From positions 62,001 to 126,000 of the forward strand of contig JACRCV010000064.1 in the NCBI GenBank assembly GCA_016218825.1: DNA of 64,000 nucleotides, in the 5' to 3' direction. The notes beneath the pieces are model-generated. The model was not told where the DNA came from, did no database searches, and saw nothing but the letters and a program-made list of their open reading frames with translations. The DNA comes from Deltaproteobacteria bacterium. Lineage in GTDB: Bacteria > Myxococcota > XYA12-FULL-58-9. Positions 29,617-61,545 of the stretch are shown here, piece after piece (position 1 is the first letter of the stretch; each line of letters starts with the position of its first letter). A program made the position numbers and the translations under genes.

Positions 29617-31352
29617 CAGGCCGCGTCCTCGGAGGTCACGCGCAGCACCTCGGCGCTCGAGGTGATACCGGCCAGCACCTTGCGGGCCCCGTCCTCGCGC
29701 AAGGTCCGCATCCCCTGCGCCTGCGCCTTGCGCTTGATCGTCGTCGAGTCGACGTTTTGCAGGATCAGCTGCCGGATGTCGTCCGACGGCAGCATCATCT
29801 CGTAGATCCCGGTGCGCCCGAGGTAGCCGGTGTTGAAGCACGACGCGCAGCCGCGACCGCGCCACAGCTTTGGCATCGGCCCGACCATCTCCGGGCTCAG
29901 GCCGAGGTTGCGGATCTCCTCGGTGGTCGCGGTGTAGGACTCCTTGCAGTCCGAGCACAAGGTGCGCACCAGGCGCTGCGCCAGAATGCCGATGATCGAC
30001 GACGCGACGAGGAAAGGCTCGACCCCCATGTCGACCAGACGGGTGATGGCGCCGGGGGCGTCGTTGGTGTGCACGGTCGACAGCACCAGGTGGCCGGTGA
30101 GCGCCGCCTGGATCGCGATCTCGGCGGTCTCGACGTCGCGGACCTCGCCGACCATGATGACGTCCGGATCGTGGCGCAAGAACGAGCGCAGGCCGCTCGC
30201 GAAGGTCAGCTGGATCTTCGGGCTGATCTGCGTCTGGCTGATGCCCTCGAGCTGGTACTCCACCGGATCCTCGATCGTCAGGATGTTCAAGTCCGGGCGG
30301 TTGATGACCGAGAGCGCCGCATACAGCGTCGTGGTCTTGCCGGAGCCGGTCGGCCCGGTGACCAGGATGATGCCGTGGCTGCGCTCGATCAGCTGGTTCA
30401 TCGTCACCAGATGGTCGGGCGAGAACCCGAGGTCGGTGAGATCGAGGATGACGTTGGAGCGGTCGAGCAAGCGCATCGTGATCCGCTCGCCGTAGGTGGT
30501 CGGGGCGCTGGCGACGCGGATGTCGATGTCCTTGCCGGCGATGCGGATGCGGATGCGGCCGTCCTGCGGCAGACGCTTCTCGGCGATGTTCAGCCCCGCC
30601 TGGATCTTGACGCGGCTGATGATCGACGCCTGCAGCTTCTTCGGCGGCCGGATCTTTTCGTAGAGGATGCCGTCGATGCGGAAGCGCACCACCAGATCGC
30701 GCTCCCCGGGCTCGATGTGGATGTCGGAGGCGTGCTCCTTGACCGCTTGCGAGATCAAGGAGTTCACCAGGCGGATGATCGGCGCCTCGTCCTCGGCGTC
30801 GAGCAGGTCGACCGCCTCCTCGATGTCCTGCGCGAAGCTGTCGAGGTTCTCGTCGGCGAGCTCGTCCATCGCCGCGGCGGCGTGCGCCGAGCCGCGGTCG
30901 TAGGCCTTGTTGATCGCGTTGATGACGGTGTCGCTGGTCGCGAGCTCGAGCTCGACCGGGGCGCTCAAGAGCACGCCGATGTCGTCCACCGGGCCGACCT
31001 GTAGCGGATCGGCGCAGGCGACCCGCACCACGCCGTCGTCCCGCTGCCCGAGCGGCACCAGGCGATACTGCTTGGCGAAGTTGATCGGCACCTTGGTGAT
31101 CAGCTCGTCGGGGATCGCGCGGTCGTCGATCTTGTCGATCAGCGGCAGGTCGAGCTGCTCCGCGAGCGCCTTGACCAGATCCTCTTCGGAGAGCAGCTTC
31201 TGGCCGACCAACACTTCGCCCAAGCGGCCGCCGCGCTCGCTCTGGGTCGCGAGCGCCGCCGCCAACGACTCGGGGGTGACGCTGCCGCGGCGGAGCAAGA
31301 TCTCGCCGAGCTTCTCGTCACCGAACTGCGCCTGTGCGCTGCTCGCCACCAT
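29616..31352 (-). CDS. gspE: Type II secretion system ATPase GspE
   Basis: The 578-residue ATPase drives pseudopilus assembly from the cytoplasmic side. The N-terminal region has two MshEN-type motifs (KLGEILLRRGSVTPESLAAA and RLGEVLVGQKLLSEEDLVKA), a known cyclic-di-GMP-binding pattern. The C-terminal motor has Walker A GPTGSGKTTTLYA, Asp box LTIEDPVEYQLEG, Walker B DPDVIMVGEVRD, His box LSTVHTNDA and a zinc site of paired CxxC (CSDC and CASC). gspE overlaps gspF by one base and follows gspD after three bases. Cyclic-di-GMP control is inferred from the motifs only. Confidence 0.95.
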   Translation of the reverse strand: MVASSAQAQFGDEKLGEILLRRGSVTPESLAAALATQSERGGRLGEVLVGQKLLSEEDLVKALAEQLDLPLIDKIDDRAIPDELITKVPINFAKQYRLVPLGQRDDGVVRVACADPLQVGPVDDIGVLLSAPVELELATSDTVINAINKAYDRGSAHAAAAMDELADENLDSFAQDIEEAVDLLDAEDEAPIIRLVNSLISQAVKEHASDIHIEPGERDLVVRFRIDGILYEKIRPPKKLQASIISRVKIQAGLNIAEKRLPQDGRIRIRIAGKDIDIRVASAPTTYGERITMRLLDRSNVILDLTDLGFSPDHLVTMNQLIERSHGIILVTGPTGSGKTTTLYAALSVINRPDLNILTIEDPVEYQLEGISQTQISPKIQLTFASGLRSFLRHDPDVIMVGEVRDVETAEIAIQAALTGHLVLSTVHTNDAPGAITRLVDMGVEPFLVASSIIGILAQRLVRTLCSDCKESYTATTEEIRNLGLSPEMVGPMPKLWRGRGCASCFNTGYLGRTGIYEMMLPSDDIRQLILQNVDSTTIKRKAQAQGMRTLREDGARKVLAGITSSAEVLRVTSEDAA

Positions 31353-31355
31353 GGC

Positions 31356-34178
31356 TCAATCGGCTCCCTCGGGCTGCACCGGCGGCGGCTCGATGTCCGT
31401 CGGCGGCAAGACCGGTGCCGGCGCCGGCGTCACCTCGGGCGGCACGACGATCGAGTCGGGCTCCGCCTCCGTGGCCGGCGCGAGCTCGTCCGCCGCGACC
31501 CCGTCGGGTTGGATCAAGATCTCGCCGGCGTCGCCGCTGCCGCCGTTCTCCACCTTGGACTGCTCGCGTTTCAGCGCCGTGGCGAGCCGCGCCAACGGCC
31601 CGCTCTTGCGGTTGAAGTCGACGTAGGCCCGATACTCGGGGCGGTTGCCGTAGAACTCGGCGGCAAACTCGTCGTACTCGGCCATCTTGCGCTCGAAGAT
31701 CCGCTGGAAGTCCGAGCGGTCGTGAATGATGTAGGGGGTCAACACCAAGAGGAGATTGACCTTCTCGATGTCGGTGGAGCGCTGCTTGAAGAGCCAGCCG
31801 ATGAGCGGCAGGTCGCCCAAGATCGGGATCTTGCTCTCGGAGTCGCGCACCCGGTCGCGCATCAAGCCGGAGAGCACCACGGTCTCCTGGTCGTCGACGA
31901 CCACGGTGGTCTTGGTCGAGCGGTTCGCGGTGATCGGGGTGTCGGTGCTCTCGTCCTTGCCGACCACGTCCTCCACCTGCTGATCGATCTTCAGGCGCAC
32001 CTTGTCGCGCTCGTTGATCTGCGGGGTCAAGGTCAGCTTCAACGACACGTCGATGCGGTCGACCGAGGAGAACATGTTCCCGAGCAGCTGGGACGCCGCG
32101 CCGGCATTGAAGCCGCCGAGATTGCCGCCGACGCCGCCGGCGCCGCCGACCCCACCGACCGCCGGGAAGCCGCCGAGGCCGGGCATGCTGGTGCCGCGAC
32201 GAAACGGGATCTTCTGCCCGACCTCGATCGACGCCTCTTCGTTGTCGGTGGTGAGCACGTGCGGCGTCGACAAGATCTGGGCCGTCGACGACGACTGCAG
32301 CGCCTTCAAGATCACGCCGAAGCTCGGGATGCTGACGTTCTCGTCGCCGATCTTGAAGCTGATCCCCTTGCCGATGATCCCGGCCACCGAGCCGCCCGCG
32401 ACCCCGAGCAGCGCCGCCGGGCTGGCGAGCGCCCCGAGCGTCGGGCTGGTGCCGTTCGAGCTCTGCGCGCTCTGCAAGAAGCCCAAGGTGCCGTCACCGC
32501 CCAATTTGCTCCCGAGGTCGTTCTCCGAGAAGCGCATCGGCGTGTGCCAGTTGAGGCCGAACTTGTCGGAGTCGGTGACCGTCACCTCGAGGATCGCGGC
32601 CTCGACGTAGACCTGACGCCGTGGCACGTCGAGCTTCTCGATGATCTTGCGCAACGCGGTGAAGTCCCGGCCGCTCGACATGATGAGCAACGAGTTCGTC
32701 GACTTGTCCGCGGTGACCTTCACCTCGCCCTCGAACAACGACGCCGACTCGGCGCCCTTCGCGGCCGGCTGACCACCGGGGGCCCCGGGAGCGCCGCCGG
32801 CGCGGCCGGCCTTCTTGTTCGGCTGGCCCTGCGCCAGAGACGACAACGTGCTCGACAGCTCCTCGGCGTCGGCGTTCTCGAGATAGTAGACGTGCACCCG
32901 GCCGGTGCCGTCGCCGGTCGGGACGTCGAGCTTGGCGATCAGGCGCTTGATGGCGTCGAAGCTGCGGCGGTTCGCCTTGATGATGAGCTGGTTGGTGCGA
33001 TCGTCGGGCACGATCTTCGAGATGCTGACGTCGGCGGTCTCGTCGCTGCCGGGCGGCGCGCCGCCGGGCATGTCGGGTTGCGGCGGCTCGCCGGCCTTGC
33101 CGGTCGGTCTCGGCGGTCGCATCGGTCCGGGCCCGCCGGGCTTGGCGGCGCCCGCGGCGCCACCGGCCTTGACGTCGAACACCTGGGTGAGCTTGTCGGC
33201 GATCTCGGTCGCCACCGCGTACTTGATCTGCACGATCTGGAGCTCGTCCTCGAACCCGGGCACGTCGAGGGCGTCGATGATCCGCCGCACCCGCGCCAGG
33301 TTCGGCGCGTACTCGCTGATGATCAAGGCGTTCGAGGGCTGAAAGACGGTGATCTCGCCCTCTTTGCTGATCAGCGACTTCAACACCGGGTTCAGCACGT
33401 TCGAATCCACGTACTTCAGGTGCAAGAGCAGCGTCACCATCTGGTCGGCGTACTTCGGACACTCCTCGTCGTCGTCGCCGATGCAGGTGGGGATCGGGGA
33501 CTTGATGCCGTCCTTGGACTCGACCAGCTTGTAGAACTTGCCGGAGCGCACGATGGTGATGCCGTTGACCTCGAGGGCGACCAGAAACACCTGGTAGGCC
33601 TCGGCCGCCGTGATCTTGGTCGGCGACAAGATCGTGATCCGCTGGCCCTTGATCTTCTCCGGGATGATGAAGTTTCGCTGCGTCAGGTTGGAGATCGCCT
33701 TCACCACGTCGGCGATCTCGGCCTTCGAGAACTCGAAGCTGAACTTGCCCTTCTTGGCGCGGGCCGCAAAGTCGATCTCGCTCTCGGGCTTCTCGGCAGC
33801 AGCGGCGCCTTGCGGCAGGCTCGGGGGCTGACCGGGAGACGGCGGCACCGGCAACGGCGGCCGGGGCGTCGGGTTCGGGGCCGGGCTCGGCGTCGGGCTC
33901 GGGGGAGGACGTTCACCCGGCTTGCCCTCCGAACCGCCGCTCTGGGCTTCTTCTTCCGCGGCCTGCCCGGCCAGCGGATGACGCTTCAGCGACGCCTTCA
34001 TCGCGTCGCGCGCCATGAAGCGACGCGGCCCGGGAGGCGGCGGTCGCGCCTCGCCCTCTTCCTGGGCCAGGTACCATCTCGAGCTCGAGGCCTCGTCCAC
34101 GAGCACCGGCGGCCGCGCGCCCGACGACGGTGGCGACGAGGCGGCGAGCAACGACAGCACAGCGGACGCGAACACCAT
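31356..34178 (-). CDS. gspD: Type II secretion system secretin GspD
   Basis: The 940-residue outer-membrane channel protein has a signal peptide (FASAVLSLLAASSPPSSGA), a Pro/Glu-rich linker of about 120 residues not typical of the family, N0 (about 140-220: SFEFSKAEIADVVKAISNLT), N1-N3 repeats (about 230-530, with Gly/Pro-rich loops) and the secretin core (VEVGQKIPFRRGT and VVDDQETVVLSGLMRDRV). The tail is Pro-rich and acidic. GspD forms a ring of about 15 subunits through which folded proteins leave. It lacks a lipobox, and no pilotin gene is recognised nearby. Confidence 0.95.
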   Translation of the reverse strand: MVFASAVLSLLAASSPPSSGARPPVLVDEASSSRWYLAQEEGEARPPPPGPRRFMARDAMKASLKRHPLAGQAAEEEAQSGGSEGKPGERPPPSPTPSPAPNPTPRPPLPVPPSPGQPPSLPQGAAAAEKPESEIDFAARAKKGKFSFEFSKAEIADVVKAISNLTQRNFIIPEKIKGQRITILSPTKITAAEAYQVFLVALEVNGITIVRSGKFYKLVESKDGIKSPIPTCIGDDDEECPKYADQMVTLLLHLKYVDSNVLNPVLKSLISKEGEITVFQPSNALIISEYAPNLARVRRIIDALDVPGFEDELQIVQIKYAVATEIADKLTQVFDVKAGGAAGAAKPGGPGPMRPPRPTGKAGEPPQPDMPGGAPPGSDETADVSISKIVPDDRTNQLIIKANRRSFDAIKRLIAKLDVPTGDGTGRVHVYYLENADAEELSSTLSSLAQGQPNKKAGRAGGAPGAPGGQPAAKGAESASLFEGEVKVTADKSTNSLLIMSSGRDFTALRKIIEKLDVPRRQVYVEAAILEVTVTDSDKFGLNWHTPMRFSENDLGSKLGGDGTLGFLQSAQSSNGTSPTLGALASPAALLGVAGGSVAGIIGKGISFKIGDENVSIPSFGVILKALQSSSTAQILSTPHVLTTDNEEASIEVGQKIPFRRGTSMPGLGGFPAVGGVGGAGGVGGNLGGFNAGAASQLLGNMFSSVDRIDVSLKLTLTPQINERDKVRLKIDQQVEDVVGKDESTDTPITANRSTKTTVVVDDQETVVLSGLMRDRVRDSESKIPILGDLPLIGWLFKQRSTDIEKVNLLLVLTPYIIHDRSDFQRIFERKMAEYDEFAAEFYGNRPEYRAYVDFNRKSGPLARLATALKREQSKVENGGSGDAGEILIQPDGVAADELAPATEAEPDSIVVPPEVTPAPAPVLPPTDIEPPPVQPEGAD

Positions 34179-36606: not shown

Positions 36607-39132
<2,526 letters not shown>

Positions 39133-48943: not shown

Positions 48944-50310
48944 CCCCGTCAGCCGGGCGCCGCCGTCCTGTCAGCGTCGCCAAGCCCGATCGCAGCGTCC
49001 TGATTCGCGGCGCGACCCTCGTGACGATGGACGCCGACCACCGCGTCGGACCCCTGGATCTGCAGATCGACGCCGGCGAGATCGCGGCCATCGGCGCCAA
49101 CCTCCCGCGACCGAAGGGCGCTCGGATCATCGACGCCCGCGGCATGGCGGCCCTCCCGGGCCTGGTGCAAGCCCACGTGCACCTGTGTCACGCGCTCGGG
49201 CGCGGCGGCGGCGAGGGCCTGGACCTGCTCACCTGGCAGCGCGAGCGCGCTCTGCCCCTCGAAGGCGCGCTCGGCGCCGAAGATCTGCGCGCCGCGGCCC
49301 GCCTCGCGATGGTCGAGCTGCTGCTCGGCGGCACGACCACGGTCCTCGACTACGGCACCGTGTTGCACACCGACGTGCTGTTCGAAGAGGCGGCGGCGTT
49401 GGGGCTGCGCTACACCGGCGGCAAGGCGATCATGGACCAAGGCCAGGGCTATCCGGCGGCGCTCCGCGAGGCCACGGCGGCGGCCATCGCCGAGAGCGTC
49501 CGCCTCTGCCGGCGCTGGCACAACAGTCACGGCGGCAGGCTGCGCTACGCGTTCGGCCCCCGCTCGGCGCTGATGGCGAGCGACGCCGCGTATCGCGCCG
49601 CGGTCGAAGAGGCCCGCCGCGCCGGGGCGCTCCTCCACACCCACGCGGCCGAGAGCGCCGAAGAGGTGACGCTCACCCGCGAGCGCGTGCAGAAAAGCAC
49701 CGTCGACCACCTGCGAACCCTGGGCGCCGTCGGCGGCGACGTCTGCCTGGCGCACGGCAACTGGTTGACGTCGGAGGAGCGCCGCGTGGTGCGGGAGAGC
49801 GGCACCCACGTCGTGCACTGCCCGTCGGCCGGCCTGCGGCTCGGCAGCGGCGTCGCGCGCCTGACCGAGCTCATCGCCGACGGCATCGAGCCGGCCCTCG
49901 GCACCAGCAGCGCCGCCGCGGTCGATCACCACGACGCGTTTGCGGAGATGCGGCTCTGCGCCTTGATCCACAAGGCCAAAGACGGCGCCGGCGCCGTGCC
50001 CGCAGAGATCGCGCTGCGGCTGGCCACCCGCTTTGGAGCTTCGGCCCTCGGCCTCGCGGACACCGGCACCCTCGAGGTGGGGAAGCGCGCCGATGTCGTG
50101 CTGCTCGACCTCCGCCGCCCGCACCTCGTGCCCGACACCGGCGACCTCGAGGCGCGTATCGTGTTCGCGGCGCGCGCCGCCGACGTCCACACCGTGATCG
50201 TCGACGGCGTCGTCCGCGTCGACGCCGGCACCCTGGTCGGCGTGAACCTCGACGCGGTGCTACGAAACGCCCAAGCCGCGGCGACGCGGGTCGCCGCGCG
50301 CCTCGGCTGA
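48940..50310 (+). CDS. Amidohydrolase (chlorohydrolase/nucleobase deaminase type) with an altered metal ligand
   Basis: The 456-residue protein fits the ATZ/TRZ/SsnA group of the amidohydrolase superfamily, which deaminate purines or related rings. It has the outer beta domain (VLIRGATLVTMDADHRVGPL, LEVGKRADVVLLDL) and TIM-barrel metal sites: HVH in VQAHVHLCHALG, HTHAAES and LAHGNWLTSEE. The last ligand, normally Asp in LGTD, is Ser323 here (ALGTSSAAAVDHHDAF). Its place in a purine/pyrimidine salvage operon suggests guanine or adenosine deamination, but the missing Asp leaves activity doubtful. The start is in an ATGA overlap with cdd. Confidence 0.85.
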   Translation: MTPSAGRRRPVSVAKPDRSVLIRGATLVTMDADHRVGPLDLQIDAGEIAAIGANLPRPKGARIIDARGMAALPGLVQAHVHLCHALGRGGGEGLDLLTWQRERALPLEGALGAEDLRAAARLAMVELLLGGTTTVLDYGTVLHTDVLFEEAAALGLRYTGGKAIMDQGQGYPAALREATAAAIAESVRLCRRWHNSHGGRLRYAFGPRSALMASDAAYRAAVEEARRAGALLHTHAAESAEEVTLTRERVQKSTVDHLRTLGAVGGDVCLAHGNWLTSEERRVVRESGTHVVHCPSAGLRLGSGVARLTELIADGIEPALGTSSAAAVDHHDAFAEMRLCALIHKAKDGAGAVPAEIALRLATRFGASALGLADTGTLEVGKRADVVLLDLRRPHLVPDTGDLEARIVFAARAADVHTVIVDGVVRVDAGTLVGVNLDAVLRNAQAAATRVAARLG

Positions 50311-50324
50311 GCGCGACCACCCAG

Positions 50325-51698
50325 ATGCTCGCCCTGGTCACCCTGCGCCGCGTTGGCCGATGGTCGCGCGACTGGTACCGGACGCGGCCGGACAGGCCGC
50401 CCGTCGACGCCCCGGCCGACGAAGTTCGCCGGCGCTACGAGCGCCTGCGCTGGGGGGTGTTCGCCGGCACGACCTTCGGCTACGGCGTCTTCTACGTCTG
50501 TCGCCTGGCGCTGTCGGTGGCGAAGAAACCGCTGATCGACGCCGGGATCCTGGACGCCGAAGAGCTCGGGCTCATCGGCTCGGCGCTGTTGTTCACCTAC
50601 GCGATCGGCAAGTTCGCGAACGGCTTGATCGCCGACCGCAGCCACATCGGCCGCCTGATGGCGACCGGGCTCGCGGTCTCGGCGCTCACCAACCTCGCCG
50701 CCGGCCTGCAGGCGTCGTTTCTGGTCTTCGTCGTCCTGTGGGCGGCGAACGGCTGGGCGCAGTCGACCGGCGCCGCGCCGAGCGTCGTGGCGCTGTCGCA
50801 CTGGTTCTCGAACCGCGAGCGCGGCACCCGCTACGGCATCTGGAGCGTCGCCCACGGCCTCGGCGAGGGCTTCACCTTCGTCGCCACCGCCGCGGTGGTG
50901 GCGGCGTTCGGCTGGCGTTGGGGGTTCTTCTGCTCCGGGGCGCTCGGCTTGCTCGCCGCGGTCGCGATCTTGCGCCTGGTCGCCGACCGGCCACAGAGCT
51001 ACGGCCTGCCGGCGGTGGCCGAGTTCAAGAACGACCACGCGCCGCTCCCCGAGGCGCACAGCTCGGTCGGCGCGCTGCAGCTCGAGGTGTTGCAGAACCC
51101 CGCGATCTGGGTGCTCGGCGTGTCCGCGGCGTTGATGTCGGTGGCGCGCTACGCGATCAACAACTGGGGCATCTTCTACCTCCAGGTATTCAAGGGCTAC
51201 GAGCTCGTCGACGCCGGCACGGTGCTGGCGTCGTTCCCGATCATCGGTATGGTGGGCGCGGCGTCGGCGGGGCTGGTCTCCGACCGCGTGTTCGGCTCGC
51301 GCCGCAACGTGCCGACGCTCCTCTTTGGCCTGCTGCAAATCGCCGGCCTGGCGGCGTTCTTGCGCATCCCGGCCGGGCACATGCTGTGGGACGCCGTGGC
51401 GCTCGCGGTGTTCGGCTTTGCGCTGAACGGCCTGCTGGTGTTCCTCGGCGGGCTGACCGCGGTCGACATCGCGCCGAAGCGCGCCGCGGGCGCGGCGATG
51501 GGCTTCATCGGTCTGTGGAGCTACGTCGGCGCCGCGATCCAGGACTGGCTGTCCGGCGCCCTCATCGAGCACGGCCACCGCCACGCCGGCGCGGCGCTGG
51601 CTTATGATTTCTCGACCGTCACCAACGTGTGGCTCGGCGCCGCGATCGCCGCCGTCGTTCTGAGCCTGACGATCTGGAACGTGAAGGCGCGCGACTAG
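50325..51698 (+). CDS. OPA-family MFS transporter (organophosphate antiporter type)
   Basis: The 457-residue protein has twelve predicted membrane segments with a central polar loop at about 225-250. It matches the organophosphate:phosphate antiporter group (GlpT, UhpT, PgtP): an N-terminal RYERLRWGVFAGTTFGYGVF, YVCRLALSVAKKPL, AANGWAQSTGAAPSVVALSH (family NGW.QG.G.P) and GTRYGIWSVAHGLGEG. Such carriers exchange glycerol 3-phosphate or sugar phosphates for phosphate. The substrate is not certain. It follows the amidohydrolase after 14 bases, so it may be part of the salvage operon, and would then handle a ribose- or nucleoside-derived phosphate. Confidence 0.88.
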   Translation: MLALVTLRRVGRWSRDWYRTRPDRPPVDAPADEVRRRYERLRWGVFAGTTFGYGVFYVCRLALSVAKKPLIDAGILDAEELGLIGSALLFTYAIGKFANGLIADRSHIGRLMATGLAVSALTNLAAGLQASFLVFVVLWAANGWAQSTGAAPSVVALSHWFSNRERGTRYGIWSVAHGLGEGFTFVATAAVVAAFGWRWGFFCSGALGLLAAVAILRLVADRPQSYGLPAVAEFKNDHAPLPEAHSSVGALQLEVLQNPAIWVLGVSAALMSVARYAINNWGIFYLQVFKGYELVDAGTVLASFPIIGMVGAASAGLVSDRVFGSRRNVPTLLFGLLQIAGLAAFLRIPAGHMLWDAVALAVFGFALNGLLVFLGGLTAVDIAPKRAAGAAMGFIGLWSYVGAAIQDWLSGALIEHGHRHAGAALAYDFSTVTNVWLGAAIAAVVLSLTIWNVKARD

Positions 51699-51746: not shown

Positions 51747-54377
51747 TCACGCCAACGGCGCTGCTGGACGGCGATCGGTCTCGGGCTCGGGCGTGGCACC
51801 GGAGTCGGTCTGCTCGACGTGACCGGTGAGGAGCTGCAGCTCGCGGGTCGCGATCTTCTTCACCACCGGGTCGTCGTGCCGGGTGCCGTCGGTGAGCCAC
51901 GACTCGCGCGGCTTGTTGAAGTGCGACTGCCACCACTCCGCCCAGCGCGCCACGTCGGCGCCGAAGTTCTGACCGCAGATCACGGTGAGCGCCGAGCTCG
52001 CGGCGCGCGCCAACCCTTGCCGCGGCGACACCACCAGCGGGATGAGCGACGGCACCGCGGAGGGCTCGCGCAATTGCCCCAACACCTGGACGGTCGCCAC
52101 CTGGGCCTCGAACACCGGCACCTTCAAGTGGTCGCGCAGCCCCTGGACGATGCGGCGATAGCTCGGCTCCGAGCGGTAGACCCGCAGGGCGTCGGCGGCG
52201 AGGAAGCGATTGCGCGGTTCGGCGTCGTAGAGTCGCCGCGACAGCATCTCGATCGCCGGCGGGTAGGCGACCGCGTAGAGGTAGTAGATCGCGAAGAAGC
52301 GCCGCAGGCGGTCGTCGCTCTCGAAGTTCGGCAGCACCAGCTCGGCGGCACCGGCGCCGCGCGCCGCGAGCAGCGCCGTGATCCCCGAGCAGCGCGAGAA
52401 CGGCGGCAAGCGCAAGTCGGAGGCGAACGGATCGACCGCGACCCGCCCCGGAAAGCGCCGCGCCAGCTCCTCGTCGGCGCTGCTGCCGACCGCGAGGAGC
52501 TTCTCGATCGCGCGCCGCCAGACCTCCGGATCGTTGGCGTCGAGGCTGTCGAGCAACATCGCGGTCTCGTCCATGCGGGTGCCGGCGATCTCGACGCTGC
52601 GCGACGCGGCCGCGGCCATGATGTCCGGCGCGGCGTCGGCCTCGGCGATGACGTGCTCCCAGGTCACCGAGGGCGGCGGCGCCTTGGCGGCGGCCGGCGC
52701 CACGACCGCGCCCCGCTCCAACCCCGCGGTCTCGACCAGCACGTCCTCCCAGTCGCCCACCGACTCCTCCGGGGAGGCGGTGATGTCGGCGAACGCGACG
52801 TACTCGCCGTCGGTGCCCGCGGCCTCCTCGGCGGTCTCCACCGAGACGCAGAGCTCCCCGCCGCCGTCGTCCGCCGGCGGCGGCGCCACCGACGCCACGC
52901 CCTCGATCCCCTTGCGGAAGTCGGCGGTCGCGGCCTCGGGCGAGGTGTCGACGGCGAACGCGCCCGAGAACGGCGAGTCGTTGATGGAGTCGACCTGCAC
53001 CGACTCCCACGGGTCGGGGTCGCGGGCGGTCGCCGTGGTCGTCGCGTCGCCCTCCATGCCCGGCAGCAACTCGACCTCGGGGGCGGCGTGCTCGGCGGTC
53101 GCGGCGGCCGGGTCGGCGAACGGGGTCGACGGCGCGGGCCCGATCTCCGAAATCTCGGGGAGGAGCTCGTACTCCTCGTCCTCGAGGACCGTGACCTCGG
53201 CGTCGGTCGCGATCGGCGCGGACAGCGCCAGCTCGACGGCGGCGGCGTCCGGTGCTTCGGGGGCCTCCGGGGTCGCGGCGACCGGGGCCGCGGCGCCGGC
53301 GATCATCTTGCCGGTGGCGCTCTTCTTGCGGCGGATCAGCGCCTCCAGACACATGCCGGCGCGGTGGGTGACGAGCAACAGCGACGCCACCCGCTTCGAC
53401 GACACCGGCTTGGCGCCGTTGTCGGCGTAGACGATCGCGGCGAGCTTGCCGCCGACGAGGATCGGGGCCAAGAACGCGGCGCGCGGCGCGGTGCGGCCCA
53501 GATCTTCGATGAGCTGGGCGTTGACGCTGTTGGACGGCAACGGCCCGAGGTAGTGGCCGCTCGTGGCATAGATGGTCTGGAACACGCTCGGCAGGCTCAC
53601 CGGCAAGGTCACCCGGGCGATGCGTGCCGAGCTCTCGGGATCGATGCCGCGCCAACCGTTCACCTGCTCGCCGTGAATGACGAACATCGCGACGAACTCG
53701 AAGGTCGTCGCCATCACCTCGAGGAGAATGTCGACGATGGCGTCGCGATCCTGGGCCGCGACCAGGCGCGACAACAGGCCGCCCTTCTGGCGCACGTCTT
53801 CTTTGCGCCGCGCCGGGGTCTGGCGCACGGTCGACAACCCCCACGACAGCACGTGCTGCGTCCCGGCGCCGTCGACGTGGCTCACGAGCGCGTCGAGCGC
53901 GGCGTCACCGTCGAGCTTGGCGAGCAGGGTCCGGAAGCGCGGCAACAGTTGGGTGCCGTAGAGGCGACACATCGCGTGGTGCAGCCGCACCTCGGTGGTG
54001 ACGCTCGGCTGCACGTTCAAGCTCAGGCGCTCGCGGATGCGGGCGTAGAGCTGCGGATCGGCCGGGCGGTTGACGAGCACCCCGAGGTCCTGGCCCTCGA
54101 GACGAAACGGCACCAGGTGATAGGTCTCGGCGAACAGCAGCGGGAACAGGCGCGGGATATAGGGCGCGACCGCCTCGATCTCGTTTCGGCCGGCGCTCGG
54201 CATCTGGTAGGCCTCGGAGAGGGCGCCGAGCACGAAGGGCTCGGTGATCGCGCCATTCTCGAGGAGCACGGTGTCGAGGCTGCCGCCCTCGACGACCTGC
54301 CGCTGAACGGCGTCCTCCACCGCGGCGGCGCGGATGATGTGGTTCTTGATCAGGCTCTGCGCGAGGAGATCGACCAT
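51747..54377 (-). CDS. MshEN-like, GAF-like and HEAT-repeat protein without ATPase domain
   Basis: The 876-residue soluble protein starts at ATG 54377. Residues 1-150 resemble the MshEN/GspE-N fold (SLDTVLLENGAITEPFVLGA; PRLFPLLFAETYHLVPFRLE), though the cyclic-di-GMP motifs are degenerate. Residues about 215-370 look like a GAF domain (ILLEVMATTFEFVAMFVIHG; FLAPILVGGKLAAIVYADNG). A 270-residue acidic, low-complexity linker follows. The C-terminus (about 650-840) has HEAT-like repeats (VFEAQVATVQVLGQLREPSA, VPSLIPLVVSPRQGLARAAS). No motor domain is present. It lies eight bases after the AgmX-type gene and is probably a cytoplasmic regulator or scaffold of the same complex. Confidence 0.8.
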   Translation of the reverse strand: MVDLLAQSLIKNHIIRAAAVEDAVQRQVVEGGSLDTVLLENGAITEPFVLGALSEAYQMPSAGRNEIEAVAPYIPRLFPLLFAETYHLVPFRLEGQDLGVLVNRPADPQLYARIRERLSLNVQPSVTTEVRLHHAMCRLYGTQLLPRFRTLLAKLDGDAALDALVSHVDGAGTQHVLSWGLSTVRQTPARRKEDVRQKGGLLSRLVAAQDRDAIVDILLEVMATTFEFVAMFVIHGEQVNGWRGIDPESSARIARVTLPVSLPSVFQTIYATSGHYLGPLPSNSVNAQLIEDLGRTAPRAAFLAPILVGGKLAAIVYADNGAKPVSSKRVASLLLVTHRAGMCLEALIRRKKSATGKMIAGAAAPVAATPEAPEAPDAAAVELALSAPIATDAEVTVLEDEEYELLPEISEIGPAPSTPFADPAAATAEHAAPEVELLPGMEGDATTTATARDPDPWESVQVDSINDSPFSGAFAVDTSPEAATADFRKGIEGVASVAPPPADDGGGELCVSVETAEEAAGTDGEYVAFADITASPEESVGDWEDVLVETAGLERGAVVAPAAAKAPPPSVTWEHVIAEADAAPDIMAAAASRSVEIAGTRMDETAMLLDSLDANDPEVWRRAIEKLLAVGSSADEELARRFPGRVAVDPFASDLRLPPFSRCSGITALLAARGAGAAELVLPNFESDDRLRRFFAIYYLYAVAYPPAIEMLSRRLYDAEPRNRFLAADALRVYRSEPSYRRIVQGLRDHLKVPVFEAQVATVQVLGQLREPSAVPSLIPLVVSPRQGLARAASSALTVICGQNFGADVARWAEWWQSHFNKPRESWLTDGTRHDDPVVKKIATRELQLLTGHVEQTDSGATPEPETDRRPAAPLA

Positions 54378-54385
54378 GGCGCGCT

Positions 54386-56383
54386 CTAGAATCCCATCTG
54401 CAACAGGTAAGGGTAGCTGACCGTCACCGGCTCGCCGTTGAATCGCGGAAACTTCCAGCTCTTGATGCGGCGCACCGCGCAGCCGGCCATCTGCGTGCTC
54501 CTGAACTCCGGCGCCTCGATCTTCACCTCCGGGACGCTGCCGTCGGGCGCGATCGTCAGAAAGATCTCCATCTTGCCGGAGAGCTTCTCGCCTTTGCGCA
54601 TCGACTCGGTCAGGCAGAGGTTCATCGAACGGCTGTTGTCGGTGATGACCTTGAAGATGGTCTCCTGCGTCAAGCCGCTCGGCAGATTCACCGCCGCGAC
54701 CTCGGTGGGCTCGGCGAGGTTCACCTGGGTCTCGCGCTTGTTGGTGTCGGCGAACACCGAGGTCGCGAGCTTGCGCTGCTCTTCGTCCATCGCCCCGGCT
54801 TCCTTGACCCCTTCGCCGGCGGCGACCGTCTCGGTGCCGGCGCCCGCGTGTTGCGCTTGGCCGCCGCTGGCGCGCGGCTTGGCGCCGTGGCTCACCTGGC
54901 CCAAGAGCTTGCGCCGCATCTGTTCGAGCTCGCCGCGCTTCGAGGGATCGAGCCCCTCGTCCGAGAGCCGCTCCTCGACGCGCTTGACGGCGCGGTCCTT
55001 GTTGGGGTCGACGAGGCCGGTGACGTCGTACAGCATCCCCATGCCTGGGATCTGGATGGTGCCGACGATATCGAGAGACACCACCCCCACCAAGGTCACC
55101 GAGACCAGGATGCCGACCGCCGCCGCGACCCGATGCGTCCGGCGCCGGCGATAAAGGCCCGCGGTCGCCATGAAGACCCGGGTCGACTCACCCGGCGGCG
55201 CGTTGACGTAGGCCTGGTTCACCTCGCTCTGTGGGTCGCTGAAGTACGGCGTTCGGTCGTCGCCGCTGCCGGTGGTCGCGCGGCCAAAGCCGTCGCCGCC
55301 GCCGAGCGCGCCGCCCACCGGCTCCTCGGTGGCCGCCGGAAACTCCGACGGCATCGCCGCATCGTCGTGGTCGGCGGCCGGCGCCGACGTCGGGAACGCG
55401 TCCGGCAAGTCGTCCGCGGTGCGCGGCGACGCGCTTGGCTGCAACCCGGCGGCGCGCGCCGGGTTACGACCCGGCATCGGCCGCGTCAGGCGCTCGCCGG
55501 TGGGGATCCCGGTCAGCGCGCTCAACAGCTCCGGCGTCTGCGCCTCGGGTGGCGGCGTCTGCGCCTCGGGTGGTGCGCCGGTTGCCGTCGGCTCGGACAC
55601 TGCCGGCACGCGATCGTTTCCGGGATCAGTGGTCGGCTCGGGCTCCGCCGCGGACGGCGGCGCGCTGTCGACCGCGGACTTGGACTTCGCCAACGCGCTC
55701 TGCAGCTGGCGGGCGTTCATCGCCACGGTGTTCTCGCCCGATTCGAAGGGATTCGGCCCGGGCGCGGCCACCGGGTCGCAGGTCGGCTGCATCACCCGCC
55801 ACGCCGCCGGCCCGGCGCGCTCCGCCTGGTCCTTGAACTCCGGGACTGTGCCCAGGCGTTGCCACTCCGCCATCCCGTCCTTCCAGATGTAGGAGCGCTT
55901 GTCGACCTCGTTGTGGGCCAGCATCTCGACGAGCGTCGACGCGGCGAGCGGCCCTTTCTGCTTGCCGGCGATGAGTACGTACCACTCTTCGGCGTCGGGA
56001 GCGGCCCGGGGCGGCGCCGACGGCGCGGCCGTGACCGCCCCCGCGGCGGCTCCGAGCTGGCGCTGGGCTTCGACGAGCTTGTTGATCTCCGCCCGCGACG
56101 AGACCCGCGTGGTCTCGTGCTCCGGGGTGAAGTCGCCGGACGCTTCGTGGCGCAGCCGATTGATCTCGTTCAGGTTCGCGACCCGGGTCGAGCCACCGTC
56201 AAAGGACGCCGGCGCCGGGGTGGGCGCCGGTGCGGCGCTCTGGGCGCCGGGCGTCGGCCCCTTGCGGCGCAGGCGAATGACGGTGCCGCACTTCCGACAC
56301 GGGAAGCGCAGCGTCGTCGCCGCCGGCACCTTCTCGTCGCCGATCGAGTAGCGGGTGTTGCATTTGGGACAGGTGAACTTCAC
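54386..56383 (-). CDS. Zinc-ribbon/GYF/AgmX-type envelope protein (GltJ-like)
   Basis: The 665-residue protein starts at GTG 56383, overlapping the upstream stop (GTGA). Residues 1-38 are an MJ0042 zinc ribbon (VKFTCPKCNTRYSIGDEKVP and FPCRKCGTVIRL). A GYF-type domain lies at about 131-180 (WYVLIAGKQKGPLAASTLVE, YIWKDGMAEWQRLG). One membrane helix follows at about 411-438 (AAAVGILVSVTLVGVVSLDI), and the C-terminal 95 residues are the AgmX/PglI domain (TIFKVITDNSRSMNLCLTES, IKSWKFPRFNGEPV). This is the domain order of GltJ/AgmX, the gliding-complex protein of Myxococcus xanthus whose zinc finger and GYF domain contact polarity regulators. No mglA/mglB is in the window, so motility is only a possibility. 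Confidence 0.85.
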   Translation of the reverse strand: MKFTCPKCNTRYSIGDEKVPAATTLRFPCRKCGTVIRLRRKGPTPGAQSAAPAPTPAPASFDGGSTRVANLNEINRLRHEASGDFTPEHETTRVSSRAEINKLVEAQRQLGAAAGAVTAAPSAPPRAAPDAEEWYVLIAGKQKGPLAASTLVEMLAHNEVDKRSYIWKDGMAEWQRLGTVPEFKDQAERAGPAAWRVMQPTCDPVAAPGPNPFESGENTVAMNARQLQSALAKSKSAVDSAPPSAAEPEPTTDPGNDRVPAVSEPTATGAPPEAQTPPPEAQTPELLSALTGIPTGERLTRPMPGRNPARAAGLQPSASPRTADDLPDAFPTSAPAADHDDAAMPSEFPAATEEPVGGALGGGDGFGRATTGSGDDRTPYFSDPQSEVNQAYVNAPPGESTRVFMATAGLYRRRRTHRVAAAVGILVSVTLVGVVSLDIVGTIQIPGMGMLYDVTGLVDPNKDRAVKRVEERLSDEGLDPSKRGELEQMRRKLLGQVSHGAKPRASGGQAQHAGAGTETVAAGEGVKEAGAMDEEQRKLATSVFADTNKRETQVNLAEPTEVAAVNLPSGLTQETIFKVITDNSRSMNLCLTESMRKGEKLSGKMEIFLTIAPDGSVPEVKIEAPEFRSTQMAGCAVRRIKSWKFPRFNGEPVTVSYPYLLQMGF

Positions 56384-57843
56384 AAGATGCTCACCAGGTG
56401 CTGCTTGATCTGTTCCTGAATCTCGGCGGTCGGCGCCGCCTTCAGGCAGCGCTCCCACATCTCGACCGCTTTGTTGCGAAACCCTTTGGCCTGATACAAG
56501 AGCGCCAGGTTCTTGGTCGCCGCGAACAGGCTCTGGTCCAGCTCGATGGCGCGCTCGTAGTGATAGATCGCCTGAAACGCGCGCCCCTGCTGCTCGAGCA
56601 CCCGCCCGAGCATGAATTGGATCTTGGCGGAGAACGGCTCGATGGTCTCCGCGGCGCGCAGCGCCTTGAACGCGGTCGCGTGATCGTTGGCCTGGTAGGC
56701 CTTGACGCCGGCGTCGTACTGACTGACCGCCTCGCGGTTCAGCTGGTCGTCGCTGACCTTCAGCGGCGTCTTGGCGAGGAGCGCCTCGGTCTGCCGCCGG
56801 AGCTCGTTGATGCGGAACGGCTTCTCGAGGAACGAGTCGACGCCGTAGAGCGCCTTGATGTCCTCGGCGATGCGCCAGCCGCGGTAGATCGCCGACACCA
56901 TCAGCACCGGCGTGCTCCCGAAGCGCTTCGACTCTTTCACCTTGCGGCAGATCTCAAAGCCGTGCACCTCGGGGAGCATCGCGTCGAGGATGATCAGATC
57001 CGGGCGCCGGTTCTTCACCAGCTGCAGCGCCTCCGCGCCTCGGGTCGCGGCGACCAACTCGTGGCCGAGGCTCTTCAAGGCCTCGACCACCAACGTCTGG
57101 ATCTCGGGCTCGTCGTCGACGACCAGGATCACCTTCCGACCCACCGTCACCGCTGCCGCGGCCGGCGTGTCCGAAAGACGCGGCGCTGGTGCCGCGGTCG
57201 CCGCCGCGGTCACGGCGGTCGCCGGGCCGTGGCGCGGCGGACTGGCGCCGGAGACGAGCTCGAGGGGCTCGTCGGTGAGGTCGATCTCGAACTCGATCGG
57301 GTCGGAGGCGGAGAGCGCCGCGCTCACCGGCGGCGCTGCCGGCACATCGACCACGAGCACCAACGCTCCGGGTTTCGCGCCCTTGGCCCGCGGGCCCTCG
57401 TAGACCTCGCTGCGGTTGGCGTACGCCTTGGCGATCGCGTCCAACAGCCTGAGGTGCAAGGCCACGTGCGGCCGAACCTTGAGGCCGGTCGCGAACCCGA
57501 TCTCGTCGATGGTCTTCTGGTCGCGGGGATTGGCCATCGCCAACAGCAGGTTGTCGCCGTCTTCCGCCAGCGGCAACACCACGTGCTGCTTGGCGACCGC
57601 GTGCGGCACCTTGTCGAGCGCGGCCCGGGGCACGGCGACCGCCGGCAGATCTACCGCCGGCACCCCGGTCTGATGCGCCAGCACCCGGAGCACGTCAGCC
57701 TCGGGGACCCGGCCGGAGCTGGCGGCGACCGAGCCGAAACGGGTGTTGGCGATCACCGTTTCGACCGCGATGGTCTCGGCGAGCGAGCGGCTGAGCAGCC
57801 CGCGCGTCACCAGACGATCGCCGATTCGTCCCTGTTCCGGCAT
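56380..57843 (-). CDS. MshEN-receiver-TPR protein without ATPase domain
   Basis: The 487-residue protein starts at ATG 57843 with GGGAGG upstream. Residues about 1-145 form an MshEN domain with motifs RIGDRLVTRGLLSRSLAETI and RFGSVAASSGRVPEADVLRV (partly degenerate cyclic-di-GMP sites), followed by LPLAEDGDNLLLAMANPRDQ as in GspE-N. A Pro/Ala linker leads to a receiver domain at about 233-352 (VILVVDDEPEIQTLVVEALK, LIILDAMLPEVHGFEI with phospho-Asp, FLEKPFRINEL). The end (about 375-485) is TPR. It thus joins two signal inputs to a protein-docking module. Its stop overlaps the start of the GltJ-like gene, so both products are made together. Confidence 0.88.
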   Translation of the reverse strand: MPEQGRIGDRLVTRGLLSRSLAETIAVETVIANTRFGSVAASSGRVPEADVLRVLAHQTGVPAVDLPAVAVPRAALDKVPHAVAKQHVVLPLAEDGDNLLLAMANPRDQKTIDEIGFATGLKVRPHVALHLRLLDAIAKAYANRSEVYEGPRAKGAKPGALVLVVDVPAAPPVSAALSASDPIEFEIDLTDEPLELVSGASPPRHGPATAVTAAATAAPAPRLSDTPAAAAVTVGRKVILVVDDEPEIQTLVVEALKSLGHELVAATRGAEALQLVKNRRPDLIILDAMLPEVHGFEICRKVKESKRFGSTPVLMVSAIYRGWRIAEDIKALYGVDSFLEKPFRINELRRQTEALLAKTPLKVSDDQLNREAVSQYDAGVKAYQANDHATAFKALRAAETIEPFSAKIQFMLGRVLEQQGRAFQAIYHYERAIELDQSLFAATKNLALLYQAKGFRNKAVEMWERCLKAAPTAEIQEQIKQHLVSIL

Positions 57844-57925
57844 GCGCCTCCCTGAGTCCCGCGGCAACTTCGATACTAGCCGCGAGCGGTGGGTGGGTCC
57901 ACACCCCGAGGCGCGAGATCCATCA

Positions 57926-58552
57926 TCAAAAGGGGACGGCGTCGGGATCCGGGAGCGTCTCCTCCGGGGCCTTGGGCACGAAGGGTCCGGGCTGCGCCCC
58001 CGTCGGTCGGGGCTGGAACGAGACGTAGAAGCCGTTGACGTCCGCCGCCAGGTTGCCGGCGACCGGCTCGAAGCACTCGAAGTGGAACACGTAGGCGTCG
58101 CTGCCGACGACGACGTAGACCTCCTCGAGCACCAGCGGAAACTGGATGTTGCCCTGGTAGCTGTACGAGCCGGTGATCGCCGCCGCCTTCTGTCCGGCGA
58201 CCGTGGTGTCGCGCCGCGAGGCCACCTTGAAACCCGGGAGCTTCTTCAGCCGCCGGTCGATGGCGTTCAACAGCAGCTGCCGCGGGTGGGCGCCTTTGGG
58301 CACCGGCAGCCGTCGGATCTGAAGGGTCGCGTTGCCGGGCCGCCCGACCCCCTGAAACTCGACGGTGTTCGGGTCGTCGGCCTTCAGCGCCACCCCCCAC
58401 CCCGCCGGGACCTCGACCGAAAACAACCGGCCGGGGGCGGTATAGGGCGTGCCTTTCTGCCCGAACGGCTCGTTCTCCGGGACCGGAATGCCCTCCGGCC
58501 CCGGCACCCAGTTTTGTCCCACCAGCACCGCGAGCAGGGTCGTCGCCAGCAT
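57926..58552 (-). CDS. Exported protein, PsbP/DUF1795-like
   Basis: The 208-residue protein starts at ATG 58552, nine bases after the nadC stop, with AGGAGAG overlapping that stop. The N-terminus (MLATTLLAVLVGQNWVPGPE) could be a short signal peptide or anchor. The domain at about 40-190 (RLFSVEVPAGWGVALKADDP, ATLQIRRLPVPKGAH, KAAAITGSYSYQGN, VVVGSDAYVFHFECFEP) has the strand order of PsbP/DUF1795-type folds. The tail is Pro-rich. Function unknown; co-transcribed with nadC and probably the downstream MshEN gene 82 bases on. Confidence 0.7.
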   Translation of the reverse strand: MLATTLLAVLVGQNWVPGPEGIPVPENEPFGQKGTPYTAPGRLFSVEVPAGWGVALKADDPNTVEFQGVGRPGNATLQIRRLPVPKGAHPRQLLLNAIDRRLKKLPGFKVASRRDTTVAGQKAAAITGSYSYQGNIQFPLVLEEVYVVVGSDAYVFHFECFEPVAGNLAADVNGFYVSFQPRPTGAQPGPFVPKAPEETLPDPDAVPF

Positions 58553-58561
58553 CGAGCTCTC

Positions 58562-59446
58562 CTAGCGGACCATCCTAACACCGTCCGCCCTGATCTCCAG
58601 ACTCAAGTCGGCGGGCACGAGCGTGTGGGTCAACGCACCCATCGAGATCCGATCGACGCCGGTTCGCGCGATGCCGTCGATCCGCGCCAAGGTCACGCCC
58701 CCCGACGCCTCGGTGAGCGCCCGCCCCCGCACCTGCCGCACCGCGCGCTCCATGTCCGCCGCGGTCATGTTGTCGAGCAACACGATGTCGGCGCCGGCGG
58801 CGAGCGCCTCCTCGAGCTGGTCGAGCCGGTCGACCTCGACCTCGATCTTCAGCGCTCCCGCCGCGTGCCGCTTCGCCATCTCCACCGCGCGCGCGACCGA
58901 GCCCGCCGCGGCGACGTGGTTGTCCTTGATGAGGACCGCGTCGTAGAGCCCGAAGCGATGGTTGCACGCGCCGCCGGTCAAAACCGCGGCCTTGTCCAAC
59001 AGCCGCCAGCCGGGGGTGGTCTTGCGGGTGTCGTAGATCTTGGCCTTGCACCCCGCCGGCACCGCGGCCACCGCCGCCGCCGCCGCCGCCGCGACCCCGC
59101 ACAAATGCATCAGGAAATTCAGCGCGGTGCGCTCGGCGGTCAACACCGCCCGCACCTCCGCACCGACCACGCACAACGCCTCGCCGGCGCCGACGACGCT
59201 GCCTTCGTGCTTCTTCTCTTGGACGGTGAGCGTGGGATCGAAGCGGCGCAAGATCGCCTCGAACAGCGGCAAGCCGCAGACGACCGTGCGCCGCCGCGCC
59301 ACCACCGTCGCCACCACCGACTGCGGTGCGCGAAAGATGGCCGCGGTCGTCACGTCGCCCGAGCCGACGTCCTCGGCGACCGCGAGGTCCACGAGCTGCC
59401 GCACCGCGGGCTCGGCGACGAGCGCCGGCCAGTTCACCCCATCCAC
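58562..59446 (-). CDS. nadC: Nicotinate-nucleotide pyrophosphorylase (carboxylating)
   Basis: The 294-residue enzyme converts quinolinate and phosphoribosyl pyrophosphate to nicotinate mononucleotide in NAD synthesis. Motifs present are LAVAEDVGSGDVTTAAIF, the core RTALNFLMHLCGVAAAAAAA, KIYDTRKTTPGWRLLDKAAV (substrate Arg and Lys), GGACNHRFGLYDAVLIKDNH, VEVDRLDQLEEAL and DIVLLDNM, and the C-terminal VTLARIDGIARTGVDRISMG (usual SGGI is changed). The length is typical. nadA and nadB are not nearby. The gene starts 21 bases after the PilZ-Hsp70 gene. Confidence 0.93.
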   Translation of the reverse strand: MDGVNWPALVAEPAVRQLVDLAVAEDVGSGDVTTAAIFRAPQSVVATVVARRRTVVCGLPLFEAILRRFDPTLTVQEKKHEGSVVGAGEALCVVGAEVRAVLTAERTALNFLMHLCGVAAAAAAAVAAVPAGCKAKIYDTRKTTPGWRLLDKAAVLTGGACNHRFGLYDAVLIKDNHVAAAGSVARAVEMAKRHAAGALKIEVEVDRLDQLEEALAAGADIVLLDNMTAADMERAVRQVRGRALTEASGGVTLARIDGIARTGVDRISMGALTHTLVPADLSLEIRADGVRMVR

Positions 59447-59467: not shown

Positions 59468-61393
59468 TCAGGCATCGGAGAGGAGCAGGTCCAGCTCCTT
59501 GTGCTCGCCGGTCACCGGGTGAACGGCGGTCACTCTCAGGATGCCGTCGCTGGTGATCTGGATCTTCACCCTGGCCCTGGCCGTGATCGCCGCGCTCGAG
59601 GCGATCGGCGGGAACGTGATCGCGCCTAGGAAGGTGTTGTCCGCCGCGAGCGCGTTCTCACCGCGGAACAAGAGGACGCGGATCTCGGCCCGCCCCGGCT
59701 CCGCCGCCACCTCGATCTCTCGCGCCACCGGCAGCCGCACCCCCCGGTGCCAGAGCAAGAGCGTCGTGCCGTCGCTCTGCCCCAGGCGAACGCTCGCCGG
59801 GAGGATGTCGGCGAGGTGCACCGCGAGCTCGGAGTGCAACGCCTCGGCGATCAGCGCCGCCCCGAGCGCCACCGCCTCGGTCGGGTGCACCGCGGCCGAC
59901 GGCCGGCGATTGAAGCGCTCCACGAGCCGGGCGCGCACCATCGGCGTCCGCGACTGGCCGCCGACCAGGAGGACGTCGTCCAGATCGGCGCTCTTGATCT
60001 TCGCCTGGTCGAGCACCGCCTGGACAATCGTCAGGGTGCGGTCCACCAGATCCTGGGTCAAACGCTCGAAGAGCGCGCGCTCCAGCGGCATCCGCAGGTG
60101 CACCGGCCCGTCCGCGGTCTGGGCGATGTACGGCAGGTCGAGATCGACGCGCATCGCCTCCGACAGCTGCCTCTTCGCGAGCTCGACCGCGAAGCGCAAG
60201 CGCTGCACCGCGACCGCGTCCTCTCTCAAGGACACCCGCCGGGTGCGCTCGAAGGTCGACAGCACGTACTCGGTCAGGCGATCGTCGAAGTCGGCGCCGC
60301 CGAGGAAGGGGTCGCCGTCGGTCGCCAGCACCTCGAACGAGTCGTTCTCGATCCGCAGCACCGTGGCGTCGAAGGTGCCGCCGCCCAGGTCGTAGACCAG
60401 GATGGTCTTCTGCATCCGCCGCCCGAAGCCGTAAGCGACCGCGGCCGCGGTGGGCTCGTTGAGGATGCGTTCGACGTTCAGGCCGGCGAGGCGCCCGGCC
60501 TCGCGCACCGCCATCCGTTGGGTCTCGCCGAAGTAGGCCGGCACCGTGACCACCGCCCGGCCGACGCTCCGCCCGAGGGCGTGCTCGGCCATGTCACGCA
60601 TCTTGCGGAGAATGTGGCCGGCGACCTCTTCGAGGCCGATGGTCTTGGCGCCGACCTTGGCCGCGGTGCGGCCGCCGCGCCCGGCGACCAGCTCGTAGTT
60701 GAAGAAGTGGCCGTAGGTCTGGACCTCGCGGGAGATGAACGGCCGTCCCAGGAAGCGCTTCGAGCCGTAGATCGCCGAGGTCGGATCGAGGATCATGCGC
60801 TCCAACGCCTTGTGGCCGACGAAGACGTTGCCGTCGCTAGCGACGAACACCACCGACGGGATGGTGTCGTAGCCCTGCGGGCTCAAGATCACGCGCGGCG
60901 TGCCCTTGTTGACGATCGCGACGCAGCTGTTGACGGTGCCGAGGTCGATGCCGATCACCGGCCCGGACGGCGCGAGCAGCGGCGCCGGCAGCGGCTGCAA
61001 CGAGAACTGGCGCGGCTGCTCGACCGCGGCACCATCGCCGGGGGCGCTCGGTCGGGCCCGCTCGCTGTTCAGTTGTTGGCCGATCTCGGCCGCGACCGCG
61101 TCGAGCTCGACGAAGCGCAGACCCATGCCGGCGGTCTTGTCCCCTTTGACCACGCCCGGCCGGGAGTGCACCACCCGCGCCGCGACCCGCGACAACGGCT
61201 TGCCGTCCGGCAGCACGAACTCGATGAGGATCAGGCTGCCGACCGCGGGCGGATTGTCATCCTGAACGAAGAGGCCGCCCTCGCTGAGGTTGGTGGCGAA
61301 GCGCTCCGAGATCGTCTGCCGGTCGGCGACCACGAAGCGAACCCGTGAGTTGAATTGCTGCCGCTGCGGGCGAGGCGTCTTCGGGTCGTCCAT
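59468..61393 (-). CDS. PilZ-Hsp70 (DnaK-like) fusion protein
   Basis: The 641-residue protein has an N-terminal PilZ domain (about 8-110: NSRVRFVVADRQTISERFAT, NLSEGGLFVQDDNPPAVGSL, GMGLRFVELD) of the Myxococcus type and a DnaK-like domain (about 145-640). The PilZ has the N-x-S-x-x-G motif but no proper RxxxR. The Hsp70 part has the phosphate loop VIGIDLGTVNSCVAIV, AVVTVPAYFGETQRMAVREA, LNEPTAAAVAYGFG, VYDLGGGTFDATVL and VLLVGGQSRTPMVR, so ATP binding looks intact; the substrate domain is short and lacks the C-terminal lid of DnaK. I chose ATG 61393 because a promoter sits just upstream. It may be a chaperone switched by cyclic-di-GMP or by a PilZ partner. Confidence 0.9.
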   Translation of the reverse strand: MDDPKTPRPQRQQFNSRVRFVVADRQTISERFATNLSEGGLFVQDDNPPAVGSLILIEFVLPDGKPLSRVAARVVHSRPGVVKGDKTAGMGLRFVELDAVAAEIGQQLNSERARPSAPGDGAAVEQPRQFSLQPLPAPLLAPSGPVIGIDLGTVNSCVAIVNKGTPRVILSPQGYDTIPSVVFVASDGNVFVGHKALERMILDPTSAIYGSKRFLGRPFISREVQTYGHFFNYELVAGRGGRTAAKVGAKTIGLEEVAGHILRKMRDMAEHALGRSVGRAVVTVPAYFGETQRMAVREAGRLAGLNVERILNEPTAAAVAYGFGRRMQKTILVYDLGGGTFDATVLRIENDSFEVLATDGDPFLGGADFDDRLTEYVLSTFERTRRVSLREDAVAVQRLRFAVELAKRQLSEAMRVDLDLPYIAQTADGPVHLRMPLERALFERLTQDLVDRTLTIVQAVLDQAKIKSADLDDVLLVGGQSRTPMVRARLVERFNRRPSAAVHPTEAVALGAALIAEALHSELAVHLADILPASVRLGQSDGTTLLLWHRGVRLPVAREIEVAAEPGRAEIRVLLFRGENALAADNTFLGAITFPPIASSAAITARARVKIQITSDGILRVTAVHPVTGEHKELDLLLSDA

Positions 61394-61434
61394 GGCCAAC
61401 ACCAGCGGGGCCTCCCCCCCCGATTGTTCCCACC

Positions 61435-61463
61435 ATAACACAGGAATGCGGCGCGGGGGTCTA
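61435..61463 (-). promoter_or_regulatory. Candidate sigma-70 promoter for the PilZ-Hsp70 operon
   Basis: On the minus strand, -35 TAGACC (61463-61458) and -10 TGTTAT (61440-61435) each match four of six consensus bases and are 17 bases apart. Transcription would begin near 61428, giving a leader of about 35 bases before ATG 61393. No heat-shock-type promoter or CIRCE repeat was seen. Confidence 0.4.
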
Positions 61464-61545
61464 GTTCTCGCCGGCCCTTGACCCACAGCGCCAGGTCCGA
61501 TGGTATAGCCGTCGAGAAAGGTGGCGCGTCATCGTCCCTGTTGCC

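Follow-up and report, generated by a model that had tools for sequence, protein, structure and literature searches.

A response regulator with an MshEN domain and its GltJ-like neighbour as a candidate signalling pair at the cell envelope of Myxococcota

MshEN domains are proven receptors for cyclic-di-GMP, which they bind through two 24-residue motifs in the N-terminal half, MshEN_N, and ATPase-free MshEN proteins, including fusions to receivers, have already been described, as has an MshEN-containing response regulator of Bdellovibrio, Bd2402, reported to bind the ligand tightly (PMC5013675). In the traffic ATPase PilF of Thermus thermophilus, GSPII-A no longer binds when its second-motif Arg is reverted to Ser, and its affinity drops about 30-fold when the second Gly is Ala (PMC12002112). 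GltJ (AgmX; NF033761) is described as an MglA effector in the gliding motility of Myxococcus (PMC12288465). Here we analyse a stretch of 64,000 nucleotides (the window; contig JACRCV010000064.1, G000:C40:62001-126000) from the 6.5-Mb assembly GCA_016218825.1 of a Deltaproteobacteria bacterium (Myxococcota), in which three minus-strand genes bring these elements together: MRT, an MshEN-receiver-TPR response regulator; a GltJ-like protein; and MGH, an MshEN protein with GAF-like and HEAT parts.

Our findings suggest that MRT and the GltJ-like protein constitute a signalling pair not described before, with control over some component of the cell envelope. When named genomes were searched with an MRT alignment, 107 loci were confirmed, and at 72 of the best-scoring 80 that were retained, a fraction biased upward because they are the best-scoring ones, the GltJ-like gene lies directly downstream on the same strand, mostly across gaps below 150 nt. 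Because it recurs at so many loci, the adjacency is not due to chance. Sorangium cellulosum and Minicystis rosea are among the carriers, so that the pair is testable in named species, and the closest named relatives are metagenome-assembled genomes (MAGs) of Myxococcota or Deltaproteobacteria. MshEN, receiver and TPR are retained in all 52 aligned MRTs; the zinc ribbon, GYF_2 domain and AgmX tail are retained in all 41 aligned partners, at about 20% identity, and nearly all full-length partners have a hydrophobic segment in mid-protein. In a tree of 101 MRTs, the paired loci cluster, with 9 changes of state against 21 when labels are shuffled, and none of 500 shuffles gave a number as low. A literature search, with subscription papers mostly outside its reach, returned nothing on the pair.

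We favour, at somewhat better than even chances, a conserved two-part output module of MRT and the GltJ-like protein that drives an envelope machine, with MGH as an added scaffold. A histidine kinase encoded elsewhere would phosphorylate the MRT receiver, and MRT, in a manner dependent on phosphorylation, would bind its partner in the cytosol, with the TPR and MshEN_C surfaces contacting the partner's zinc-ribbon/GYF arm. Since one transmembrane helix is predicted to join this arm to the periplasmic AgmX tail, the signal would reach an envelope machine and alter its state or assembly. In the window's lineage MGH, its MshEN degenerate, would have been added to the operon as a further scaffold. 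By analogy with MglA, which acts through GltJ in Myxococcus, the simplest account may be that MRT switches an envelope complex through the GltJ-like protein. We put forward more tentatively, at rather less than even chances, a Myxococcota-wide module in which a response regulator directly drives a GltJ-like trans-envelope protein, the MshEN domain is now purely a protein-docking domain and not a cyclic-di-GMP receptor, and the machine is something other than gliding motility. A pair of this kind suggests a route by which two-component signals could bypass transcription on their way to the periplasm, and it would extend the GltJ type of switch to functions other than gliding.

Several distributions weigh against the two-part module. 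MRT occurs in 63 of 193 Myxococcota genomes sampled across the phylum and searched with a single MRT sequence, and among 20 MRT loci picked from this sample only 5 have a GltJ-like neighbour by profile while 15 have none. The unpaired MRT families include f13, f17, f19, f21, f23 and f31; a few unpaired loci have MRT near a contig end, and some may therefore be false negatives. Within the window's class, one genome (G011) has MRT and MGH with no detectable GltJ-like gene. Conversely, two genomes have a GltJ-like gene without MRT, beside an MGH remnant in G018 and without MGH in G001.

The architecture of MRT is supported from several sides. Its open reading frame (56380-57867) matches Pfam MshEN (PF05157) at 72.6 bits against a cut-off of 23.1, and Pfam confirms the receiver and TPR to which the original prediction had joined it. 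The receiver has the acidic pair D251/D252, the phospho-acceptor D295 and the K349 of a two-component response regulator, and its fold is agreed on by Foldseek and by a structure model (47 sequences, pLDDT 86.5) that comprises a four-helix bundle, an MshEN_C subdomain, a disordered linker at residues ~180-240, the receiver and TPR helices. The top 50 Foldseek matches of this model are receivers and TPRs, with no MshEN among them, so MshEN is assigned from homology at the sequence level and from the pattern of predicted helices. MRT and MGH both align across MshEN_N and MshEN_C to the solved PilB of M. xanthus (3jc8), and both domains are homologous to solved PilB, PilF and MshE structures. No DNA-binding domain appears in MRT in Pfam or in the structure model, and its output, judged by its domains, is protein-binding and not DNA-binding. 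Foldseek pairs the receiver part with PorX, a receiver protein tied to the type 9 secretion machine of the envelope; PorX has another effector domain, is not known to carry MshEN or TPR, and belongs to another phylum. Bd2402 likewise carries MshEN in a response regulator, but MRT departs from its description: the ligand motif of the MRT family is degenerate, and MRT possesses TPR and pairs with a GltJ-like gene. MRT homologues also occur in two MAGs labelled Acidobacteria (L152, L162), with no GltJ-like neighbour detected.

The middle protein (P0002) is of the zinc-ribbon/GYF/AgmX type, as was predicted: Pfam confirms Zn_ribbon_4 and GYF_2, NCBIfam confirms the AgmX/PglI tail, and, the membrane segment included, its parts follow one another as they do in GltJ. 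NF033761 is matched by each of the 41 aligned relatives, and the zinc-ribbon cysteines, the Trp, Gly and Pro of GYF and two tail cysteines are invariant among them. The protein is predicted to span the envelope, with a cytosolic zinc-ribbon/GYF arm, one transmembrane helix and a periplasmic AgmX tail. It falls short of the GltJ equivalog model, scoring 99.8 bits against the NF033761 cut-off of 450; the genome has a protein nearer to GltJ (C25), though not necessarily one above that cut-off. A true GltJ would also bind MglA-GTP and act together with AglRQS and Glt proteins. Because AgmX tails are common in this genome (22 matches), the tail alone is no sign of gliding. Furthermore, no response regulator is among the genes that PMC3169522 gives for the M. 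xanthus gltJ cluster, whereas here MRT adjoins the GltJ-like gene. A strong AgmX/PglI tail (116 bits) is also found in an open frame of ~840 aa at 36607-39132 of the window, ~2.4 kb from gspD.

That the two MshEN domains bind cyclic-di-GMP, as originally proposed, is not borne out as a conserved property. We judged binding by two RLGxx...Q motifs with Arg, Gly and Gln at their key positions, six in all. MGH retains one of these (LAQ/SDA) and scores 22.8 bits against the NCBIfam model NF053729 c-di-GMP_motif, below its cut-off of 38; the second Gly is Asp in 19 of 19 aligned relatives, and the second Arg is Ser or Ala in 15. MGH resembles PilF GSPII-A with Ser at the second Arg, and differs in having Asp at the second Gly and a changed Arg and Gly in the first motif as well. 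The window's GspE, by comparison, reads KGQ/RGQ, its Gly and Gln being intact in each motif and its Arg only in the second, and passes the NCBIfam cut-off. The window's MRT retains five of the six residues (RGT/RGQ), a number reached by only 2 of 52 family members; most have four or fewer, with Gln or Pro the commonest residues in place of the first Arg and Ala usually replacing the second Gly, and in some MshEN_N is missing. Given these losses, MGH is unlikely to have conserved cyclic-di-GMP sensing and MRT may or may not have it, and the expected second-messenger site in these proteins is, from the alignments, mostly degraded. A Pfam MshEN match alone is no proof of binding: in these proteins it covers the C-terminal half, while the half that would bind the ligand has changed or is gone.

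A circuit that relies on cyclic-di-GMP sensing by both domains to feed an envelope machine therefore seems to us quite unlikely. It could draw on the proven receptor function of MshEN (PMC5013675), on the five key residues of the window's MRT, and on a PilZ-DnaK gene upstream in the window, with PilZ genes also preceding MRT in one other clade. Against it stand the near-complete loss in MGH, the changes in its relatives at two positions where substitution in PilF abolishes or weakens binding, the erosion across the MRT family, and the PilZ-DnaK protein itself, in which no RxxxR motif was seen by eye.

Alternatively, MshEN_C could be a docking domain that lets MRT and MGH work on the platform of a type II secretion system (T2SS) or type IV pilus (T4P), in the manner of the N-terminal domains of GspE and PilB; the GltJ-like protein would then be an accessory that spans the envelope. 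The N-terminal domain of GspE docks to GspL, all MRTs still match the Pfam MshEN profile even where MshEN_N has been lost, and T2SS genes (GspE at 29616-31352, GspD at 31356-34178) lie ~18-25 kb from the trio on the same contig. However, the recurrent MRT neighbours that were scored are not T2SS or T4P genes, T4P-like genes appearing by eye at one locus only (L133), and we regard this alternative as unlikely.

MRT and MGH are indeed ATPase-free MshEN proteins flanking the GltJ-like protein: a Pfam scan found no T2SSE domain in either, and no ATPase domain in any of the three products. The accompanying premise, that MshEN is normally part of GspE/PilB, was too narrow in light of the forms already described, and 5 of the 9 MshEN proteins in this genome lack an ATPase. 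Another of these (L004:1084-2040) is fused to an FHA/YscD-like domain, and a T2SSE ATPase with MshEN (L005:922-3027) has an N-terminal cyclic-nucleotide-binding domain. The ATPase at 46.05-~47.6 kb, viewed originally as a motor without MshEN, does have T2SSE and no MshEN, with two hydrophobic stretches recognised by eye in its N-terminal part, but it falls outside the trio's transcript because a plus-strand MFS gene (49185-51698) converges on the trio from downstream, between the two. A fragment matching this ATPase was found near trio relatives only at one same-genus locus.

The surroundings of the pair vary by lineage: in Polyangia it often follows queA-tgt, and elsewhere it stands with SctS/SctT-BamA-Skp or PilZ-DnaK-nadC. 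Since the context varies, the target may vary too. In one clade, which includes L130:13106-14161, L166:10389-11407 and loci related to them, FliQ/SctS-like (Bac_export_3) and FliR/SctT-like (Bac_export_1) genes come after the pair; in L130, BamA and Skp/OmpH come next. A role of the pair in a type III-like export gate or in outer-membrane assembly would accord with this order, yet we consider it very unlikely, as the order is confined to that clade and the Bac_export_3 genes of the window's genome are on other contigs. Housekeeping neighbours such as nadC and queA-tgt might suggest that the genes merely share a transcript and form no functional unit; the pair stays adjacent while its surroundings change between lineages, which leaves this explanation scarcely credible.

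Returning to the two-part module and its presumed scaffold, MGH lies next to the pair solely within the class-level lineage of the window, in 5 of 8 genomes (G000, G038, G030, G034, G025), so that of the expected conservation the wide retention of the pair stood and that of the trio did not extend beyond the class. MGH relatives are present in most sampled phylum genomes, many matching over the GAF-like part only and usually not beside the pair. MGH matches Pfam MshEN at 34.5 bits (cut-off 23.1), and its family profile matches M. xanthus PilB (residues 1-141) and similar stretches of PilF and MshE. Of the two parts said to accompany this domain, HEAT is upheld by the family profile, whose C-terminal part finds natural HEAT structures as well as designed HEAT/alphaRep ones, with a sub-threshold Pfam score (22.7 bits, cut-off 27.7). 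The GAF-like label has no Pfam GAF match and comes solely from a predicted alpha/beta pattern at residues 201-360 of a low-confidence model (four sequences, pLDDT 42.7) that we used as a secondary-structure hint only. The predicted disordered linker (residues ~540-580) contains conserved short motifs, WEDVLVET and APPxVTWxDVIAEA, which are possibly binding motifs; similar ones occur in L053, whose genome gave no MRT match. In L068, MGH neighbours a kinase, an NtrC-type regulator and a Zn-ribbon protein that we rejected as GltJ-like, since it is an RDD protein. Receiver genes directly adjoin MGH in L065 and L081 (REC-DUF4388) and do so sporadically elsewhere, and we do not claim them as general neighbours.

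The trio is co-directional and closely packed, in the order MRT, GltJ-like, MGH, and the overlapping or near-overlapping arrangement noted originally holds: the MRT stop and the GltJ-like GTG start share GTGA (4 nt overlap), and 8 nt separate the GltJ-like stop from the MGH start. Terminator candidates were no richer than in shuffled sequence, and a sigma-70 promoter scan found none. Genes for a small protein, nadC and a PilZ-DnaK fusion lie upstream, tightly spaced and in the same direction.

Table 1. Positions of the trio, its domains and the upstream genes in the window.
Feature	Coordinates	Strand	Remarks
MRT (P0003)	56380..57843	-	MshEN-receiver-TPR response regulator; ATG start at 57843
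MRT, MshEN_N	57670..57828	-	two 24-residue motifs 29 residues apart; RGT/RGQ, 5/6 key residues intact
MRT, MshEN_C	57409..57666	-	Pfam MshEN match; retained in all 52 family members
MRT, receiver	56794..57129	-	D252, D295, K349 invariant in 52 relatives
MRT, TPR helices	56386..56751	-	C-terminal
GltJ-like protein (P0002)	54386..56383	-	GTG start; zinc ribbon-GYF-one transmembrane segment-AgmX tail
GltJ-like, zinc ribbon	56273..56380	-	MJ0042 type; four Cys invariant in 41 relatives
GltJ-like, GYF_2	55835..55984	-	
GltJ-like, hydrophobic segment	55049..55135	-	single, transmembrane
GltJ-like, AgmX/PglI C-terminal domain	54401..54670	-	TonB_C-like; predicted periplasmic; two invariant Cys
MGH (P0001)	51747..54377	-	MshEN-GAF-like-linker-HEAT protein
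MGH, MshEN_N	54210..54368	-	LAQ/SDA, 1/6 key residues intact; predicted cyclic-di-GMP-blind
MGH, MshEN_C	53949..54158	-	Pfam MshEN match
MGH, GAF-like region	53298..53777	-	alpha/beta; weakly supported
MGH, HEAT-repeat region	51825..52568	-	
Small protein	57926..58552	-	upstream; probably exported; weak sub-threshold DcrB similarity; syntenic in lineage
nadC (QRPTase)	58562..59446	-	upstream; syntenic
PilZ-DnaK fusion	59468..61486	-	upstream; syntenic in one other family of the order

The PilZ-DnaK fusion has an NxSxxG motif, read by eye, and also lies upstream of the pair in L049/L090.

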